Assembly (NCBI GenBank): GCA_001839685.1
Contig: MLAK01000353.1
Location: 43,294-104,238 of the forward strand
Source of the DNA: Tritrichomonas foetus
Taxonomy: Eukaryota; Parabasalia; Tritrichomonadida; Tritrichomonadidae
DNA: 60,945 nt
Reading direction: 5' to 3'
Positions within the stretch are counted from its first letter, which is position 1. Each line of letters starts with the position of its first letter. Of the stretch, positions 12,099 to 43,922 are shown piece by piece. Both the position numbers and the translations under genes were made by a program. Under the pieces are notes generated by a model, which was not told the DNA's origin, did no database searches, and saw nothing but the letters and a program-made list of their open reading frames with translations.

Positions 12099-12118
12099 AT
12101 TTAAGGGGCAACTGACAT
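12099..12118 (+). repeat. Left terminal inverted repeat plus TTAA
   Basis: ATTTAAGGGGCAACTGACAT is the exact reverse complement of 15385-15404. The element proper probably begins at 12105 (GGGG), with the preceding TTAA as the target site. Confidence 0.88.
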
Positions 12119-12552
12119 ATGAAGTGACCGAATGAAAAAAATGAAGTGATTGTTTCTATGTGATCTCTCAATCGTGATTTGACAGGATTTATCAGAAAAG
12201 AATTGAATGCATAAAAAATAGTTCTTTCAATTTTTTTTCTGTGTGCATTCAAATGATCATATTAATCGAAAAAAATTCTCTTTATCAGAAGATTAGTAAT
12301 GCTTTCTTTTATTCTTTAATTGGTATGCAATAATATATATATATCGAATAATGAAGACTTTTGCGCAAGAAAAAATGGTGCAATTTCATATGATTTTGTG
12401 ATCAAGTTTTGGCGATACAGTTTTAGATAAACATGCATATAGCGTGGGAATTTTAACTTATTTTAAAAGTAATAAAATCGATAAAATATTTATATATTAT
12501 AAAAAAATAGTTACTTAATTGTTTATTTTTCCCCTCCTGTTTTTATAATCTC

Positions 12553-14409
12553 TTACAGATCCTGCATAATTTGCTCATATAATAAAATTTCTGGCCGTGA
12601 TTTTTTGTCAATCTCAAAAGGACTTTTTATTTGATTGATAAATGAATCTGAAATCAAGAACCACTTATTATTTTGGCGTACTACATCGAAATAATGCCCA
12701 GAATCTGGTAAATCTCGGAAATAAACTATCGATTTCATTGAATATAATTTTTGATTTATATGAAGTGTTTCTTTGATGTGAAAAATTTGTTCATAATTCG
12801 AATCAGTTAAATGAATAATTAAGAGAATGTTGATGGACACAATTTGAGTCATCATTAAAGGAGTATTTCTACAGAACTGACAAATACTATCATTTATAGG
12901 TTCATTTTTACAACAATCTTCAATATTTTGTAATTCAGAGCATGAAATTGAGTAAAGTAGGTTATTTTCCAACACTTCATTTCGAGCGCCACATTGTGAG
13001 CATAAAATGGATTTAGCAATAAATCCAGTCATATTTGCTATCATATTATATTTTTCTTCTAAGTCGTTCAATAAAAATAGTAAAAACGCAGAGGTATCTC
13101 CTTTTTCATTGTACTTGATTGTTTGTGTAGAATTATTAATATAATAATTTATTATATAATCAATATCTCTTTTGTTAACGATGTCTTTTGTACATTTTTT
13201 CAAAAATAATAACAAATCGTCTTCTTTATTGAATAATAATAGCTTAGTTCGAAAATGCTCTGAACTCATTAATAATTGAATTCCACTGTTTATGTAACAA
13301 TTATTAGCTATATTATATAAACGAAAAATATTTCCTAGTAATGCTTGATCAAGAAATAGTTTCCCAAAGTTAAACAAATCGAAAATGGTCATAGAAAACC
13401 AATCATCTGCATTGATGTCCTTAAAAAAAGAATCTTCTTCAGGTGAATTGAAGTTGGTTTCACGAAAATCTAAATCGTTTGTTTCTTCTTCTTCTTTGAA
13501 ATCTGAATGAAGGACATCAGTTTCCCGAAATTCTATATTTATTGGAGTGAAAACTTTCTTTAATTTGTAATCACCTTCTTTCCTCCCTGATTGTCTCCTA
13601 AGATTTCTAGTTTTGTTTTTTTGTTGTATATATTTTTCTGTTTGTTGCTTTTCTTTGTTTAGGGTTTTTCGCAGTATATATTTATCGATAATTTGTTTAT
13701 TATGATCATTTAATTCTGCGATATTAAAATTGTTCATGAGCTGGTAATAAAACTTGTGCCCCTCATTCCAAAGTAAAACCGTAATTTTCATTCTGGTTGA
13801 AAAAGTCATTTTCCAAGATTTATTTTTGGGAGCCAGTTTGATTTTGAGTGAATGTAAACTTTCATTACATTGAGTATTCTTATGGGGTTCTGTTTTTTCA
13901 AAGATAATAACATTATCATCAAGAAACGTATCAAGTCTATTTTTTAAATTAATATTTTTCGCAAAAGCTGGAATTTTAAAATCAATTAAATTCTCATGCA
14001 AACATTTCTGATGGTTATTCGAAAAATGTTCTGTAATATTAAAAAATTGTTCTTTTTTTGTTATCAGAGGTAAATCTCTGTCAAGCATCAGGACTTTAAC
14101 GAATTTTAAAAAAGACTTGATTATATCTGAAAATATATTTTTATTGTCGAAATTAAATTTAAGAAAACGGTTTTTAAATTGCTTATATGCGTGATTTACA
14201 TCTATAAATTGAATAATTTTCCAGTTCAACTTAGTAAATATTCCACCTACATTGTTATCGTTATCCATTGTGATACTATCTATTTTTGATAATGAACACC
14301 ATTTAGAACTTAATTTATTTAAAATTTCTGATTCAAGTGACTGGGGAAATCCTTCGCAATTTCCAATAGACCAATGGCTTTTTAATGACACTACATAATA
14401 GTCAATTAT
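12553..14409 (-). CDS. Transposase-deubiquitinase fusion, C-terminal part (Mutator-like core + C19 peptidase)
   Basis: The frame is open into the assembly gap; its nominal start at 14391 is GTG, so the true start lies beyond the gap. Numbering from that GTG, residues 1-215 carry Mutator-like transposase signatures. These are HWSIGNCEGFPQSLE, an aspartate in SITMDNDN (D43/D45), FIDVNHAYK, a zinc-type EHFSNNHQKC, and CNESLHS...APK...R...NEG with E177 as the likely catalytic Glu. A basic linker (about 245-280) and an acidic linker (about 285-330) follow. Residues 355-600 form a USP-like C19 peptidase: Cys box NIANNCYINSGIQ with C365, GDTSAFLLFLLNDL, zinc pairs C464/C467 and C504/C507, and His box SGHYFDV with H566 followed by D582. 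The expected catalytic residues of both modules are present except the first transposase Asp, which should lie in the gap. The fusion is inferred from one continuous frame. Confidence 0.75.
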   Translation of the reverse strand: MIDYYVVSLKSHWSIGNCEGFPQSLESEILNKLSSKWCSLSKIDSITMDNDNNVGGIFTKLNWKIIQFIDVNHAYKQFKNRFLKFNFDNKNIFSDIIKSFLKFVKVLMLDRDLPLITKKEQFFNITEHFSNNHQKCLHENLIDFKIPAFAKNINLKNRLDTFLDDNVIIFEKTEPHKNTQCNESLHSLKIKLAPKNKSWKMTFSTRMKITVLLWNEGHKFYYQLMNNFNIAELNDHNKQIIDKYILRKTLNKEKQQTEKYIQQKNKTRNLRRQSGRKEGDYKLKKVFTPINIEFRETDVLHSDFKEEEETNDLDFRETNFNSPEEDSFFKDINADDWFSMTIFDLFNFGKLFLDQALLGNIFRLYNIANNCYINSGIQLLMSSEHFRTKLLLFNKEDDLLLFLKKCTKDIVNKRDIDYIINYYINNSTQTIKYNEKGDTSAFLLFLLNDLEEKYNMIANMTGFIAKSILCSQCGARNEVLENNLLYSISCSELQNIEDCCKNEPINDSICQFCRNTPLMMTQIVSINILLIIHLTDSNYEQIFHIKETLHINQKLYSMKSIVYFRDLPDSGHYFDVVRQNNKWFLISDSFINQIKSPFEIDKKSRPEILLYEQIMQDL

Positions 14410-14571
14410 NNNNNNNNNNNNNNNNNNNNNNNNNNNNNNNNNNNNNNNNNNNNNNNNNNNNNNNNNNNNNNNNNNNNNNNNNNNNNNNNNNNNNNNNNNN
14501 NNNNNNNNNNNNNNNNNNNNNNNNNNNNNNNNNNNNNNNNNNNNNNNNNNNNNNNNNNNNNNNNNNNNNNN
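14410..14571. other. Assembly gap (162 N)
   Basis: This is a run of undetermined bases inside the fusion gene. The frames on the two sides do not agree modulo 3 across 162 bases, so either the gap length is an estimate or a frameshift is hidden in it. A T homopolymer borders the gap on the right. Confidence 0.98.
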
Positions 14572-15160
14572 TTTTTTTTTCGGATTTGGCTTTTATTTCA
14601 CTGAATTTATTAGATAATTCGCAAAAAGAACTATTTAATTCGGTTATTTTTTGTTTTAACTGAGTGTTTTCATATGTCAATGACGAGATCTTTTGTTTCA
14701 AACGGTTATGTTCCTTTTTTAATAACTCATTTTCAATTCTGCATTGAAATTGATCAAAATTTGGGTTGCTTTGGAGCAAACTGATAATTTCCGTTTTATT
14801 CATTGAATCAATATAGTTTTGAACATCTATATATTCACTAATTGCCGGTACATTAATTATCTCTGTATGAGAAAACGACAATAAGTGAAATTTATTATTG
14901 CATTCATGAAAAGTTTGTTTCTCCGGGAAATTTGGAGCTTTTGAATCTACATAATTCTTTGTTTGAATCAGATGACAGTTTTTGTGAAAAAACAAGCGCA
15001 TTTGATTGATATTATAGGTTGTAATAGGAATATTGCAGATTTTCAAAGCCTGCTCAATTGCAGTTCTTCGCATTTTGCTTCCCTGTAGTGAATGGTGATA
15101 GCAAAATATATAGGGATAGAAAAAAGTTAGTTTATTCGCTGGAACAAACACTTTATCCAT
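14572..15160 (-). CDS. Transposase-deubiquitinase fusion, N-terminal coiled-coil part
   Basis: The ATG is at 15160 and the frame stays open through 196 codons into the assembly gap. The likely reading is that this is the start of the same protein as 12553-14409. The first ~50 residues contain SKMRRTAIEQALKICNIPI, reminiscent of the helical N-terminal region preceding the catalytic core in Mutator-like proteins; that resemblance is weak. Residues about 135-196 form a strong coiled coil with leucine/isoleucine heptads (RLKQKISSL, NTQLKQKITEL) ending in a Lys-rich run at the gap. About 225 bp separates the start codon from the right terminal repeat, leaving room for a promoter inside the element. 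It could instead be a separate small gene if the gap hides a stop. Confidence 0.65.
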
Positions 15161-15257
15161 TTTGAAAATGGCGGATTTTTAGTAAAAAAATTGAATAATA
15201 TAATTTCAGGGATTATTGAAAATATTTCAATGAAAAAGTTGATAAAATTGTGAAAGA

Positions 15258-15336
15258 AACTTTTTCAATAATTCTAGTAACATAACTTTTTAAGTGACGA
15301 ATAACTTTTTCAATAATTCTAGTAACATAACTTTTT
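15258..15336. repeat. Subterminal 34-bp direct repeat inside the transposon
   Basis: A 34-bp sequence starting AACTTTTTCAATAATTC occurs at 15258-15291 and again at 15303-15336, 45 bp apart. It lies between the gene start and the right terminal repeat. Subterminal repeats of this kind are often transposase-binding sites; that role is inferred. I see no matching copy at the left end. Confidence 0.85.
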
Positions 15337-15384
15337 CTAAATCATTCATAGAGCTGCTTCAAAATTTTGATATAGCTCGATGTG

Positions 15385-15404
15385 ATGTCAGTTGCCCCTT
15401 AAAT
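15385..15404 (-). repeat. Right terminal inverted repeat plus TTAA
   Basis: This is the exact reverse complement of 12099-12118. Read on the plus strand it ends in GCCCC followed by TTAA. Confidence 0.88.
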
Positions 15405-25010: not shown

Positions 25011-26656
25011 ATGGATGAATATATCGAAATTAAAGAGATAAAAGAGAAGCTTTAAGTTAATAAAGAATACTAAAGATGATTTTAACAAATCCAGTCCTGA
25101 TCTTTATTCTGAAGATAATGTTGCTGGAAATATTGCTAGTGTTAAGAGAAAAATATGATTTAAGCAATCTCTTCAAGAAATTGATCTTCAATCAAACAAT
25201 TGAAATTTATTAAGTATTTCTACATTTAATTTCTAATACTTCATATTCTTGACATTCAATCAACCTGAGTAAAACTTTTTTCATTGATTTTTGATGAACT
25301 TGTTTTACATCATTCTTTGAACAAAATATTCCGACAATCAACACTATTATTAGTTTTCAAAAGAAATCTATTAATATTAAAATTGATTGAACAACAATTT
25401 ATTGATATGCATTTTATTGGAAAAAGAAGTCCCAAATACTTACAATTAACAATTTTTCATTTTTTTAAATTCACATATCCAATAGAAATTTCTTAGAAGA
25501 TATAATGTAATAGAAGAAGATCAAGATGATATATTTATAGAAAAAATGAAACATTCAAATGAAAAACTTGCAAAGACATATTCATCAAGATGATTTCGAA
25601 TCATTCATTGATTTCACTTCCAACATCAACAATGTTGATTTAAATTCTAAAATTTTACCAACTTTATTTTGAAATCAATTCATATATTAATAATTTTGGA
25701 TCTAAAACAGTCTGAATTACTCTTCTTCAATATTAGATAACATATGAATTTTCAATAATACATTAATAATTGTCGCTATATGTGGTTAAATCAAGGTAAA
25801 TATTCACATGAATTAAAAAATAATTTCAAAATTATACCAATTTTTATCAAAAGAATCACAATATCAAATTAATGAAAACTTTAATTTCAAATCAACAGAA
25901 TATCAGCAAAATGAAATCCTAAATTCTTTTCATGAATTCCAACATTTCTTAAATGGCCAAACTTCATTTTTTCCTATACAACTTTGCATATTTACCAGAA
26001 ATTTTTTTATTTTATTTTTATTTTTTATTTATCGAAATATTCATTTTTTCCCTATTTGTTGTATTATTTTTCAATAATACACACCATTATCTGTTTATAT
26101 TCATTCCATTATTCATGATTCTTTTGAATTTATTAATGATTTTTTTTATGTTCATTGTACACAACTTCATTTTGCATGTTCCAGAGGTCATTCTGAAATT
26201 GTTGAAATTTTATTGAAGCAATCTAAAAATAATATTTTATCTCAAATAATACAATAATTTATGATTCCTCATCATCAAAATTTCGTAATTTTTAATAAAA
26301 TTGTCATTCTTTACCATGTAATTATGATGAAATTTTAAAAAAGAACGAAAATATTAACCTTAATATGAAAGATCTCTGAATATTTCATTGTTTTATGATT
26401 CATACTTTCATCATATTTATTCTTTTATATAGATTTTTCATCAATTTATTATGCTAATCAAAATGGAAATATCGATATATGAAACATTTTTTGAATCCTA
26501 GAACATTCGATTCAATTGAAAATGTAAAATTTCCTGATATTTTCTTCATTGTACTATATTTTGTGCTTATCAAGTATTCCTTAACGAATTTCCATCTGAG
26601 AATTTTTCATTTCGCCTGTGAATTTAATCAAATTCAAATTGTGGCACTTTTGTTAA

Positions 26657-27221
26657 GGGGGTTGTTTAACCGCCAAAAAAAAGTGCGCATAAATTCCTTA
26701 TTATCAAAAAAACGGAGAAGACCTCTGCGCTGATCTCTTGCAGAATAACTCACTACGAACCAAGCTTTTATATACTTATTTACCGAGTCGATCCAAATTT
26801 TACAGCTGAAAATTAATTTTTCAAATTTCCTCAAATCGATAAATCTTAATTTTCGGNNNNNNNNNNNNNNNNNNNNNNNNNNNNNNNNNNNNNNNNNNNN
26901 NNNNNNNNNNNNNNNNNNNNNNNNNNNNNNNNNNNNNNNNNNNNNNNNNNNNNNNNNNNNNNNNNNNNNNNNNNNNNNNNNNNNNNNNNNNNNNNNNNNN
27001 NNNNNNNNNNNNNNNNNNNNNNNNNNNNNNNNNNNNNNNNNNNNNNNNNNNNNNNNNNNNNNNNNNNNNNNNNNNNNNNNNNNNNNNNNNNNNNNNNNNN
27101 NNNNNNNNNNNNNNNNNNNNNNNNNNNNNNNNNNNNNNNNNNNNNNNNNNNNNNNNNNTCATCCTTTTATTTCTAATTTTTAATACATATGACGATAGAA
27201 TAAATTTGACAGACAACCCCC
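26657..27221. mobile_element. Short TTAA-flanked element inserted in the ankyrin pseudogene
   Basis: A 565-bp insertion has ends reading GGGGGTTGTTTAACC at 26657 and, on the opposite strand, GGGGGTTGTCTGTC from 27221. TTAA stands outside both ends (26653-26656 and 27222-27225). The terminal repeat is short, 9 bp exact and about 11 of 12. Ankyrin-like coding runs up to the left TTAA and resumes after the right one, so the insertion boundaries are supported independently. More than half the interior is an assembly gap; the visible parts contain no transposase. It shares the TTAA target and the G-run start with the element at 12105-15398, but the inner repeat bases differ, so it is likely a non-autonomous relative of the same superfamily at most. 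Confidence 0.72.
26857..27158. other. Assembly gap (302 N)
   Basis: This run of undetermined bases lies within the short TTAA-flanked element. Both ends of the element are outside the gap. Confidence 0.98.
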
Positions 27222-27253
27222 TTAAAATCTCAATATTGACAATGATGATAAGG

Positions 27254-42500: not shown

Positions 42501-43922
42501 ATGTTGAGGAGAGAAACAAAACAGCCGAAAAATCAAACTCTTCGCCAAGCTGCCACTTCTTGGCGTCAGCAAACACATGATGAACCACTTCACCTCAAGA
42601 CAAAACGAATCAATCCACAGCAATTTCGACGATCAAACTCTCATCTTTACACTCGAACACCAAACAAAAGCAATAACAATGAAAATAAAGCAAACCAAAG
42701 TCTCTGGGACGAAAATGGCTGTCTTATTCGATCAAAGAATGAAATCGGAAAATCAACAAAAAAGCCTCTTCTCAAACGATCAGCATCAGTTAATTCAATT
42801 CATCCAAATATTATCAAAAATTTGACACACCAGACGACAGAAAGACCTCCACTCGATACAAAAACTCATCATACAATCAAATTTACCGAAACGAGAGTTC
42901 GGCCAATTACCAGAACAAGGCCAACAAGGAAAGAACAAGAAGACTCAACAATTCGTTTAGCAACAAGATCATTACCAAAAAGAGAAAGAAGTGTTCAGCC
43001 AAGAAGACAATCATCTGATTTTCAAGGTTTTATAAACCGTCAAAATAAGTCAATTAAAAGTCATAACCGTAAACCATCTCCACAAAAAGAATACAAAATT
43101 GATTTTTCTGAAGGTACTAAAAAGCTCCTTCAAAAAAGTACAAGTTCAAGTGTTCTAAGTCATTCAATATATTCAATCAAAAAAAAGGAAGATCCATCAA
43201 GAAGAGAACAAACAAATCAAACCAAAAAAACAACACCATCTAAAAATCAAAATTCAAACAATAATCAAAAAATAAATAATAACACTAATACTAACAATTC
43301 TAATAATACTACAAATAATACTAACAAAAATAATAATAGAAATAATAAAAATGCTGTAGTGGAAGGAAATGTTAGGCCAAAAATTATGAAAAGAAGTCAA
43401 AATAGACTTCAAGATATGGATTATGATATGGAAAAAGTCTTAAAAGAGGACAGACGAAAGATTTTGATCGCAAGTGTTCGAATTGAAGATGGTTCAATGA
43501 AACTGCCTTCTTCAGCACGAAATCAAAATCCCAATGAAAGCAATTCAAAGCAAGCAACAAACAGAGATCTTTCACAATCACGAAAATCAAATTTATCATC
43601 AAGAAGAAGATCAGCTTCAGTAAATTCGTCTTTTTCAGGCATGAACAAAGACTCCTTTGTTCCAAGGAGATACCAACCAGACAGTGTCTACTCAACTCGA
43701 ATGAGAATCCAAGAAAAAATTAATGAAATGAGGCCAATTATTGATGCTGATGAAGATGAAATCAAATACTCTGCTGCTGCAAGAAGAAATTCCCAGAAAA
43801 AGAGAAATTATGTACCTGATTACATTAGATCATTTGATATGATCAAACCTGATTTTGATGATCCAAGGCGGATGGAGAGAAGAAAAACTATGTCAAAGGC
43901 GTTAGGTTTAAATTGTGTATAA
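42501..43922 (+). CDS. Basic Arg/Ser/Asn-rich disordered protein
   Basis: A 473-aa strongly basic protein with ATG at 42501 and a TAA stop. It has no folded domain I recognise. Arg/Lys and Ser/Thr alternate throughout. The motif RSASVNS occurs twice (KRSASVNSIHP near residue 97 and RRSASVNSSFS near 370), each in an R-x-x-S context suited to basophilic kinases. An Asn/Thr-rich stretch lies near residues 250-290. The last ~110 residues are less repetitive (RRYQPDSVYSTRMRIQEKI, YVPDYIRSFDMIKPDFDD) and may hold the conserved part. A microtubule- or nucleic-acid-associated role would fit the charge but is speculation. Confidence 0.75.
   Translation: MLRRETKQPKNQTLRQAATSWRQQTHDEPLHLKTKRINPQQFRRSNSHLYTRTPNKSNNNENKANQSLWDENGCLIRSKNEIGKSTKKPLLKRSASVNSIHPNIIKNLTHQTTERPPLDTKTHHTIKFTETRVRPITRTRPTRKEQEDSTIRLATRSLPKRERSVQPRRQSSDFQGFINRQNKSIKSHNRKPSPQKEYKIDFSEGTKKLLQKSTSSSVLSHSIYSIKKKEDPSRREQTNQTKKTTPSKNQNSNNNQKINNNTNTNNSNNTTNNTNKNNNRNNKNAVVEGNVRPKIMKRSQNRLQDMDYDMEKVLKEDRRKILIASVRIEDGSMKLPSSARNQNPNESNSKQATNRDLSQSRKSNLSSRRRSASVNSSFSGMNKDSFVPRRYQPDSVYSTRMRIQEKINEMRPIIDADEDEIKYSAAARRNSQKKRNYVPDYIRSFDMIKPDFDDPRRMERRKTMSKALGLNCV

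Follow-up and report, generated by a model that had tools for sequence, protein, structure and literature searches.

A Kolobok-like transposon of Tritrichomonas foetus whose reading frame joins a DDE transposase to a ubiquitin-specific protease, and a second such fusion in an IS630/Tc1-type element

The element and its reading frame

Contig MLAK01000353.1 of the cattle parasite Tritrichomonas foetus carries, within the 60,945-nucleotide stretch that we analysed (positions 43,294 to 104,238 of the forward strand; hereafter the window), an element of about 3.3 kb at 12105..15398 in which a DDE transposase and a C-terminal ubiquitin-specific protease (USP; peptidase family C19) share one minus-strand reading frame. 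It is a multi-copy, Kolobok-like transposon inserted at TTAA sites, with a transposase that is presumably of the cut-and-paste kind. The genome searched was the 63.7-Mb T. foetus assembly (G000), in which the window lies on the contig that we call C130. The IMP dehydrogenase encoded by this assembly matches PDB 1ak5, the T. foetus enzyme, with full identity across 503 residues. For T. foetus KV-1 a chromosome-level assembly is available (PMC11415386). An earlier note, made from the window sequence alone, had described a single gene inside perfect terminal inverted repeats joining a coiled coil, a Mutator-like transposase core and a C19 peptidase. The repeats (14 bp, adjoining TTAA on both sides) are as it gave them, and its motifs are found in the minus-strand frame 12556-14409. 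The features of the element are as follows, with column numbers referring to alignment A2 of USP domains, described below.

12101..12104, no strand: left copy of the TTAA target, from the window sequence
12105..12118, plus: left terminal inverted repeat GGGGCAACTGACAT, perfect, 14 bp
12556..14409, minus: transposase-USP reading frame, 618 residues visible in the window, 731 residues from stop to stop in gap-free copies
12577..13323, minus: USP domain (UCH/C19)
12646..12648, minus: predicted catalytic Asp (LISDSF), nearly invariant column D236
12694..12696, minus: predicted catalytic His (SGHYFDV), invariant column H220
12871..13002, minus: CSQC and CQFC pairs, likely the zinc-finger cysteines of the USP (from the window sequence)
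13297..13299, minus: predicted catalytic Cys (NNCYINSG), invariant column C19
13843..14271, minus: transposase core in the window, with MDNDN, DVNH (DxxH), H2CH (HFSNNHQKCLH) and CNES (third acidic residue)
14410..14571, minus: gap of 162 N, holding 313 bases of transposase with the first catalytic Asp in gap-free copies
14573..15160, minus: N-terminal frame, 196 residues, coiled-coil-like at its end
15385..15398, minus: right terminal inverted repeat GGGGCAACTGACAT, perfect, 14 bp
15399..15402, no strand: right copy of the TTAA target, from the window sequence

A Pfam profile search of the window's 618-residue frame finds the UCH domain (PF00443, E 9.5e-14) and scores no transposase profile in the window's own part of the frame. 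Once other copies close the gap, the 731-residue frame matches PF20700 at residues 23-250 (48.4 bits, E 8.6e-13) and UCH at residues 476-724 (51.6 bits, E 1.3e-13), the only two profiles above the Pfam cut-offs. This frame spans the gap region without any N in three copies (L004, L006 and L007), and a fourth, L005, has a comparable frame of 733 residues with one X. The 162 N of the window correspond in L004 to 313 bases that extend the transposase frame and carry its first catalytic Asp (SFDSAWSH), so that neither a stop nor intergenic sequence, the refuting outcome that the earlier note had named, stands between transposase and peptidase. The C19 peptidase on the transposase polypeptide is thus borne out in single frames, and the gap-free copies rule out that the gap itself created the fusion. 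A self-processing polyprotein was set aside, as Pfam profile scans report no ubiquitin-like domain in the frame.

As assembled, the coiled coil proposed as a third module of the same gene reads in frame with the transposase in some copies and out of frame in others. Leucine-rich and heptad-like at its end, the 196-residue frame (window 15160-14573) matches Pfam coiled-coil families only below the cut-offs. Its junction with the transposase is an A-run (at about position 1200 in L004) that counts 9 A in L004, L006, L007, L016 and L018; coiled coil and transposase lie in different frames in L004, L006 and L007, the three of these read for frame, and in one 928-residue frame in L008 and L012, where the run is 9 A, N, 9 A. 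The sequence turns to N at the run in L001, L002 and L010, and an older relic on contig C373 has 8 A at this position. A stretch that by eye is coiled-coil-like reads in frame directly into the transposase in L056, a copy of the related lineage C, which makes such an arrangement a natural one for the group. The A-run may vary in length because the assembly collapsed it, or because it is a real frame break or frame-shifting site.

Copies and mobility

Searching the whole genome gave 42 matches to the frame, among them 12 places, the window included, with 618 of 618 residues identical; these copies belong to family A. The end pattern including TTAA has 19 forward and 22 reverse matches, against 0 and 0 for a control, and all 41 are exact although one mismatch was allowed. 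Eight of nine copies examined lie between TTAA on either side, with flanks that differ from copy to copy; for the ninth, L005, no ends were located. Among the 12 with the full frame, one or both ends of L003, L009 and L011 fall in N. The main aligned segments are 99.6-100% identical to L004, end pieces of about 100 bases in L006, L007 and L012 are 98.1-99.0% identical to it, and an internal-deletion copy of about 1.1 kb (L070, C455:6700-8100), with both ends and TTAA intact, is 99.0-99.7% identical. Near-identical copies at different TTAA sites speak for recent spread. When the host flanks of nine insertions were joined over one TTAA, open frames of 197 and 190 residues were restored at L002 and L006, and frames of 34-125 residues at the remaining insertions; at L006, the insertion point is crossed by 19 of 21 other genomic matches, which are only 22-32% identical.

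A further short, TTAA-flanked element lies in the window at 26653-27225, with 9-bp ends GGGGGTTGT and a sequence that is partly N; it looks like a non-autonomous relative (a miniature inverted-repeat transposable element, MITE) of the Kolobok-like group.

Class of the element

The earlier note had placed the element among the Mutator-like elements (MULEs), and PF20700 does bear the Pfam name Mutator-like transposase. The target duplication of MULEs is 8-11 bp long. That of Hop, for example, is 9 bp (PMC2725143), whereas the 8-base flanks of the present element, TTAA included, are not mutual repeats in any of the eight copies with both ends. We therefore reject membership in the MULEs and correct the class to Kolobok-like, on the grounds of the TTAA target, the GG terminus, a DDE core with DxxH and an H2CH motif. 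TTAA is likewise the target of the copies L026, L027 and L058 of the related family D, and the ends begin GGGG in family A and GGG in D and its relative D', in agreement with the rule of two purines at the end of Kolobok elements (PMC6004289). The residues D162, D164, DxxH and E296 are present in all five rows of the transposase alignment A1, and the D of SFDSAWSH in four, the fifth row being truncated; a C/DxxH motif between the second D and the E of the triad is a Kolobok rule (PMC10045372). The decayed lineage C deviates in these core motifs (QDTHN and AINH). The putative zinc motif H2CH reads HFSNNHQKCLH in A and has equivalents in B, C and D, is altered in lineage E (HFSRNCTPLCNH) and is missing from D'. 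The fold of the transposase core finds its match in ISCth4.

The THAP domain that is usual in Kolobok was not detected in the N-terminal 197 residues at E values up to 5, and the element is therefore filed as Kolobok-like and not as a typical member; the assignment rests on target, ends and motifs. The ends of piggyBac elements are CCY. Those of family A begin GGGG and its frame passes profile cut-offs for PF20700 and PF00443 alone, and piggyBac was accordingly rejected.

Related lineages and the number of captures

Weaker whole-genome matches, 28-30% identical in the matched and mainly transposase part, lead to several other lineages. In lineage B (L024, L025 and L030) the transposase is followed by a USP (UCH E 8.8e-9), and lineage C (L059 and L056) likewise has a transposase (PF20700 E 2.3e-6) and a USP (E 3.7e-15). 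Lineage E (L054 and L055) carries both domains in a single open frame. With a UCH score of 23.0 bits it falls narrowly short of the cut-off of 23.9, and PF20700 gives no match; it is placed here by its match to A (E 5.1e-10) and by the aligned motifs. Families D (L026, L027 and L058) and D' (L057) are bounded by TTAA-GGG and have, in L026 and L057, the two copies scanned, PF20700 transposases. In lineages B, C and E a search for the ends found none; that these too are mobile we infer from kinship, to which repeated copies add in the case of B and E. The recurrence of the fusion in divergent lineages means that it is not a one-off capture, the outcome that the earlier note had named as fatal to its view of the family.

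A transposase tree of eight rows has a branch, weakly supported (72/58; 73% of bootstrap trees), that sets the five rows with a USP to one side. The USP tree, which kept 26 of 31 sequences after five without a Cys in the aligned column (L065, L066, L067, L083 and L084) had been dropped, does not unite the USPs of A, B, C and E; these Kolobok-like USPs are long-branched, and long branches meet. The trees fit either one capture and a subsequent loss in D or several captures.

Two further places belong to this survey. L023, of lineage B, has a sub-threshold match to DUF3447 ahead of the transposase (E 4.9e-4), and has lost the middle of its USP while keeping the His and Asp region. A stand-alone USP frame (PF00443 E 8.9e-10) lies on C426 (L052, reverse complement 1868-2545); about 1 kb separates it from a D-type transposase upstream, which puts its start beyond the element end expected from L026, and it was not counted as a part of D.

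A second fusion, in an IS630/Tc1-type element

A USP is joined to a transposase a second time in L051 and its relatives, here in the reverse order: their 747-residue protein has the USP at residues 28-306 (E 6.8e-24) and the transposase domain DDE_3 (PF13358) at residues 573-699 (E 7e-23).

L051:1591-3831; also C71, C169, C202, C281, C340, C627, C849, C826 and C373:9109-11061: USP-IS630-type fusion

Eight places match the protein P0003 with equal scores and have 747-residue frames, a relative on C826 has 708 residues, and P0003 on C373 is 53% identical to L051. Three further copies compared as DNA are 99.9-100% identical to L051. The left end is TA followed by CAGTCG, with differing flanks, in all four copies fetched (L063 has this end twice); the right end runs into N in three of the four and was not identified in L051. 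Among the best five of 168 bacterial tblastn matches to the C-terminal half, three are annotated as IS630 family transposases. The USP of L051 is 16% identical to that of family A, within the range of 15-22% given by 18 further USP rows from T. foetus, and the two IS630-type USPs form a clade of their own (100/100) in the USP tree. Given the reversed domain order and a USP no closer to that of A than others are, we read this fusion as a separate capture.

The USP domain

The Cys and His of the predicted active site are kept in all six transposon USPs (A, B, C, E and two of IS630 type), and the Asp stands in the aligned column in five, with an Asp one residue earlier in B; by comparison, the Cys is missing from the aligned column in five of 25 other USP domains sampled, the same five that were dropped from the tree, some of them perhaps misaligned. 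Judged by aligned motifs, the active sites of transposase and peptidase both look intact. Alignment A2 comprises 23 rows: the USPs of A, B, E, C and L051, plus 18 from elsewhere in the T. foetus genome, only two of them (L068 and L069) inspected beyond the domain. A first model of the full-length protein left the USP unfolded, with a predicted local distance difference test (pLDDT) score under 50 over residues 386-731, and the USP was therefore modelled alone on A2; so modelled, it takes the USP fold. The closest solved folds include USP46, USP12, SAGA Ubp8 and USP1, and USP18 and USP30 match about as well.

Selective constraint was estimated as omega (NG86, 1000 bootstraps). For the transposase of A against the C373 relic omega is 0.356 (0.148-0.991) and 0.371 (0.195-0.697). 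Between two B copies (B1-B2) it is 0.113 (0.033-0.293) for the transposase and 0.320 (0.043-0.629) for a piece of the USP, with silent sites near saturation. In the IS630-type element, where silent sites are again near saturation, it is 0.063 (0.012-0.109) for the transposase, 0.142 (0.030-0.267) for the USP and 0.190 (0.029-0.386) for the linker, which is thus about as constrained as the USP. Constraint on the IS630-type protein, its USP included, is supported by these estimates, and constraint on the Kolobok-like USP is only suggested.

The genome's USP family is very large, with at least 143 UCH matches (142 of 205 candidates scored), many of them in frames of about 2,200-2,600 residues. 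Among lower-scoring USP places, five of the 143 (L065-L069) were inspected, and none of these is joined to a transposase.

What the protease may do for the element

Our preferred reading, to which we give a probability of about 0.4, is that the Kolobok-like element's frame joins its DDE transposase to a predicted active deubiquitinase that acts in cis to protect the transposition complex. The transposase, as family knowledge and the anatomy of the element suggest, would bind the ends and cut and paste at TTAA; the USP, being on the same chain, would accompany every transposase molecule and would strip ubiquitin from the transposase and from adjacent bound proteins; and the deubiquitinated complex would escape proteasomal destruction and live longer. 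The sequences themselves establish the fusion, the ends of the element, its near-identical copies at different sites, the aligned triads and the recurrence in further lineages; the activity of the USP, the transposase complex as its substrate and a raised rate of transposition are what we infer. A USP that travels on the transposase chain would explain why the enzyme is fused and not separate, and why unrelated transposases have taken it up.

Several observations weigh against this reading. The USP of family A is divergent (14-22% identical to the other A2 rows) and has KGDTSAF in place of the QQD box. Purifying selection on this peptidase, for which the earlier note had proposed a test among the copies, did not emerge: the copies differ too little, and the single older relic, whose divergence includes neutral decay, gives a USP omega of 0.607 (0.313-1.141). 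The fullest B copy, L024, has one stop in its frame, and the frames of lineage C are broken. D and D' have no fused USP, which shows that the class can do without one, and the very large USP family makes a chance capture easier in this genome. No other genomic match was found that could confirm the empty site at L002.

A role in chromatin is an unlikely but reasonable alternative: the USP, brought to DNA by the transposase, would deubiquitinate histones (H2A/H2B) or other chromatin proteins and so open the site or block silencing. The closest solved folds do include USPs known from chromatin and DNA repair (USP46, USP12, SAGA Ubp8 and USP1), but fold proximity at about 20% identity is uninformative on substrate, USP18 and USP30, which have other substrates, match about equally, and no chromatin-reader domain scores above the Pfam cut-off.

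Distinctly less probable is a role in repair, in which the USP would reverse ubiquitin signals at the break left by excision or insertion. Bao et al. raise repair as a possibility for the Ulp1 and OTU domains of transposases (PMC2836005), and the joined flanks of L002 and L006 are open across a single TTAA; D and D', however, have TTAA ends without a fused USP, so that TTAA elements as such do not need one.

Slightly more doubtful still is that the USP is a passive passenger, a captured host exon of no benefit to the element. The size of the T. foetus USP family, the long branches of the Kolobok-like USPs and an omega not confidently below 1 between A and the C373 relic fit such a passenger, but Cys and His have been kept across lineages that are only 28-30% identical while five of 25 other USPs show no Cys in the aligned column, some perhaps through misalignment, the IS630-type USP has an omega of 0.14 (0.03-0.27), though with silent sites near saturation, and the same enzyme class was taken up by two superfamilies.

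That the joint is an artefact of assembly or reading can practically be dismissed: the window copy is gapped and the adjoining A-run poorly assembled, but 12 places on 12 contigs carry an unbroken frame over the final 618 residues, which reach from the transposase core into the USP, the flanks differ in the eight copies with ends read, and lineage E repeats the same order in one open frame on two contigs.

A highly abundant class of deubiquitinases has been joined, within a single genome, to transposases of two unrelated kinds, whose copies are near-identical and open. These elements, together with related TTAA elements that have no USP, offer natural replicates and natural controls for asking whether cells restrain transposases by ubiquitin and whether transposons counter it. 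Proteases of the SUMO and ubiquitin systems occur in transposons of scattered classes (Ulp1 in Mutator, OTU and Ulp1 in Ginger1, VTD in Helitrons; PMC2836005, PMC9741609), and why transposons carry them is an open question on which the fusions bear. It is a tentative conclusion, held at only a little short of even odds, that trichomonad cut-and-paste transposons have repeatedly, and under selection, taken up deubiquitination as a weapon, two unrelated superfamilies having independently fused a catalytically intact USP (C-terminal in the Kolobok-like elements, N-terminal in the IS630/Tc1-like ones), which would imply a ubiquitin-based host defence overcome in cis.

Comparison with known systems

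Kolobok elements of T. vaginalis are reportedly the subject of Meng et al. 2011. Mutator elements with a Ulp1/C48 protease have longer target duplications than the TTAA of the present family. The literature matches listed, most subscription papers being outside the search, describe neither a Kolobok-C19 nor an IS630-C19 fusion; the MULE papers searched by term do not mention ubiquitin, peptidase or protease; and protein-database searches, which needed shared words of five residues, had T. foetus proteins only among the matches listed.

The Xenopus Kolobok element XKol shares with the window element the TTAA target, the purine terminus, the DDE core and the H2CH motif; the window element differs in having no detected THAP domain and in its C-terminal USP, of which the excerpt on XKol makes no mention (PMC6004289). 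The catalytic domains of human USP46 and USP12 are about 20% identical to its USP and are not fused to a transposase. Ulp1/C48 Mutator elements of plants and animals likewise combine a related DDE transposase with a protease of a ubiquitin-like system, but that protease is the SUMO-type Ulp1 (PMC2836005). Ginger1 transposases carry OTU and Ulp1 domains and thus also have a C-terminal cysteine protease of ubiquitin or SUMO type on a DDE transposase; here the transposase is integrase-like and the proteases are of families other than USP (PMC2836005). The VTD deubiquitinases of Helitrons are transposon-encoded too, with a suggested role against degradation, and have been tested biochemically, but they belong to another deubiquitinase class in a rolling-circle element (PMC9741609).

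The closest precedent is XP_001314237.1 of T. vaginalis, listed by Bao et al. (2010) as a transposase_11 with a Peptidase C19 (PMC2836005). Like the present element it places a C19 peptidase on the polypeptide of a trichomonad DNA transposase, and it qualifies the supposition of the earlier note that such a combination was undescribed. Its transposase is Transposase_11 (PF01609), a profile with 0 matches in the T. foetus genome, and not of the PF20700, Kolobok-like type. The kind of fusion therefore has a one-line precedent in T. vaginalis; what is new is its occurrence in Kolobok-like and IS630-type transposases, its recurrence across lineages and its presence in near-identical open copies.

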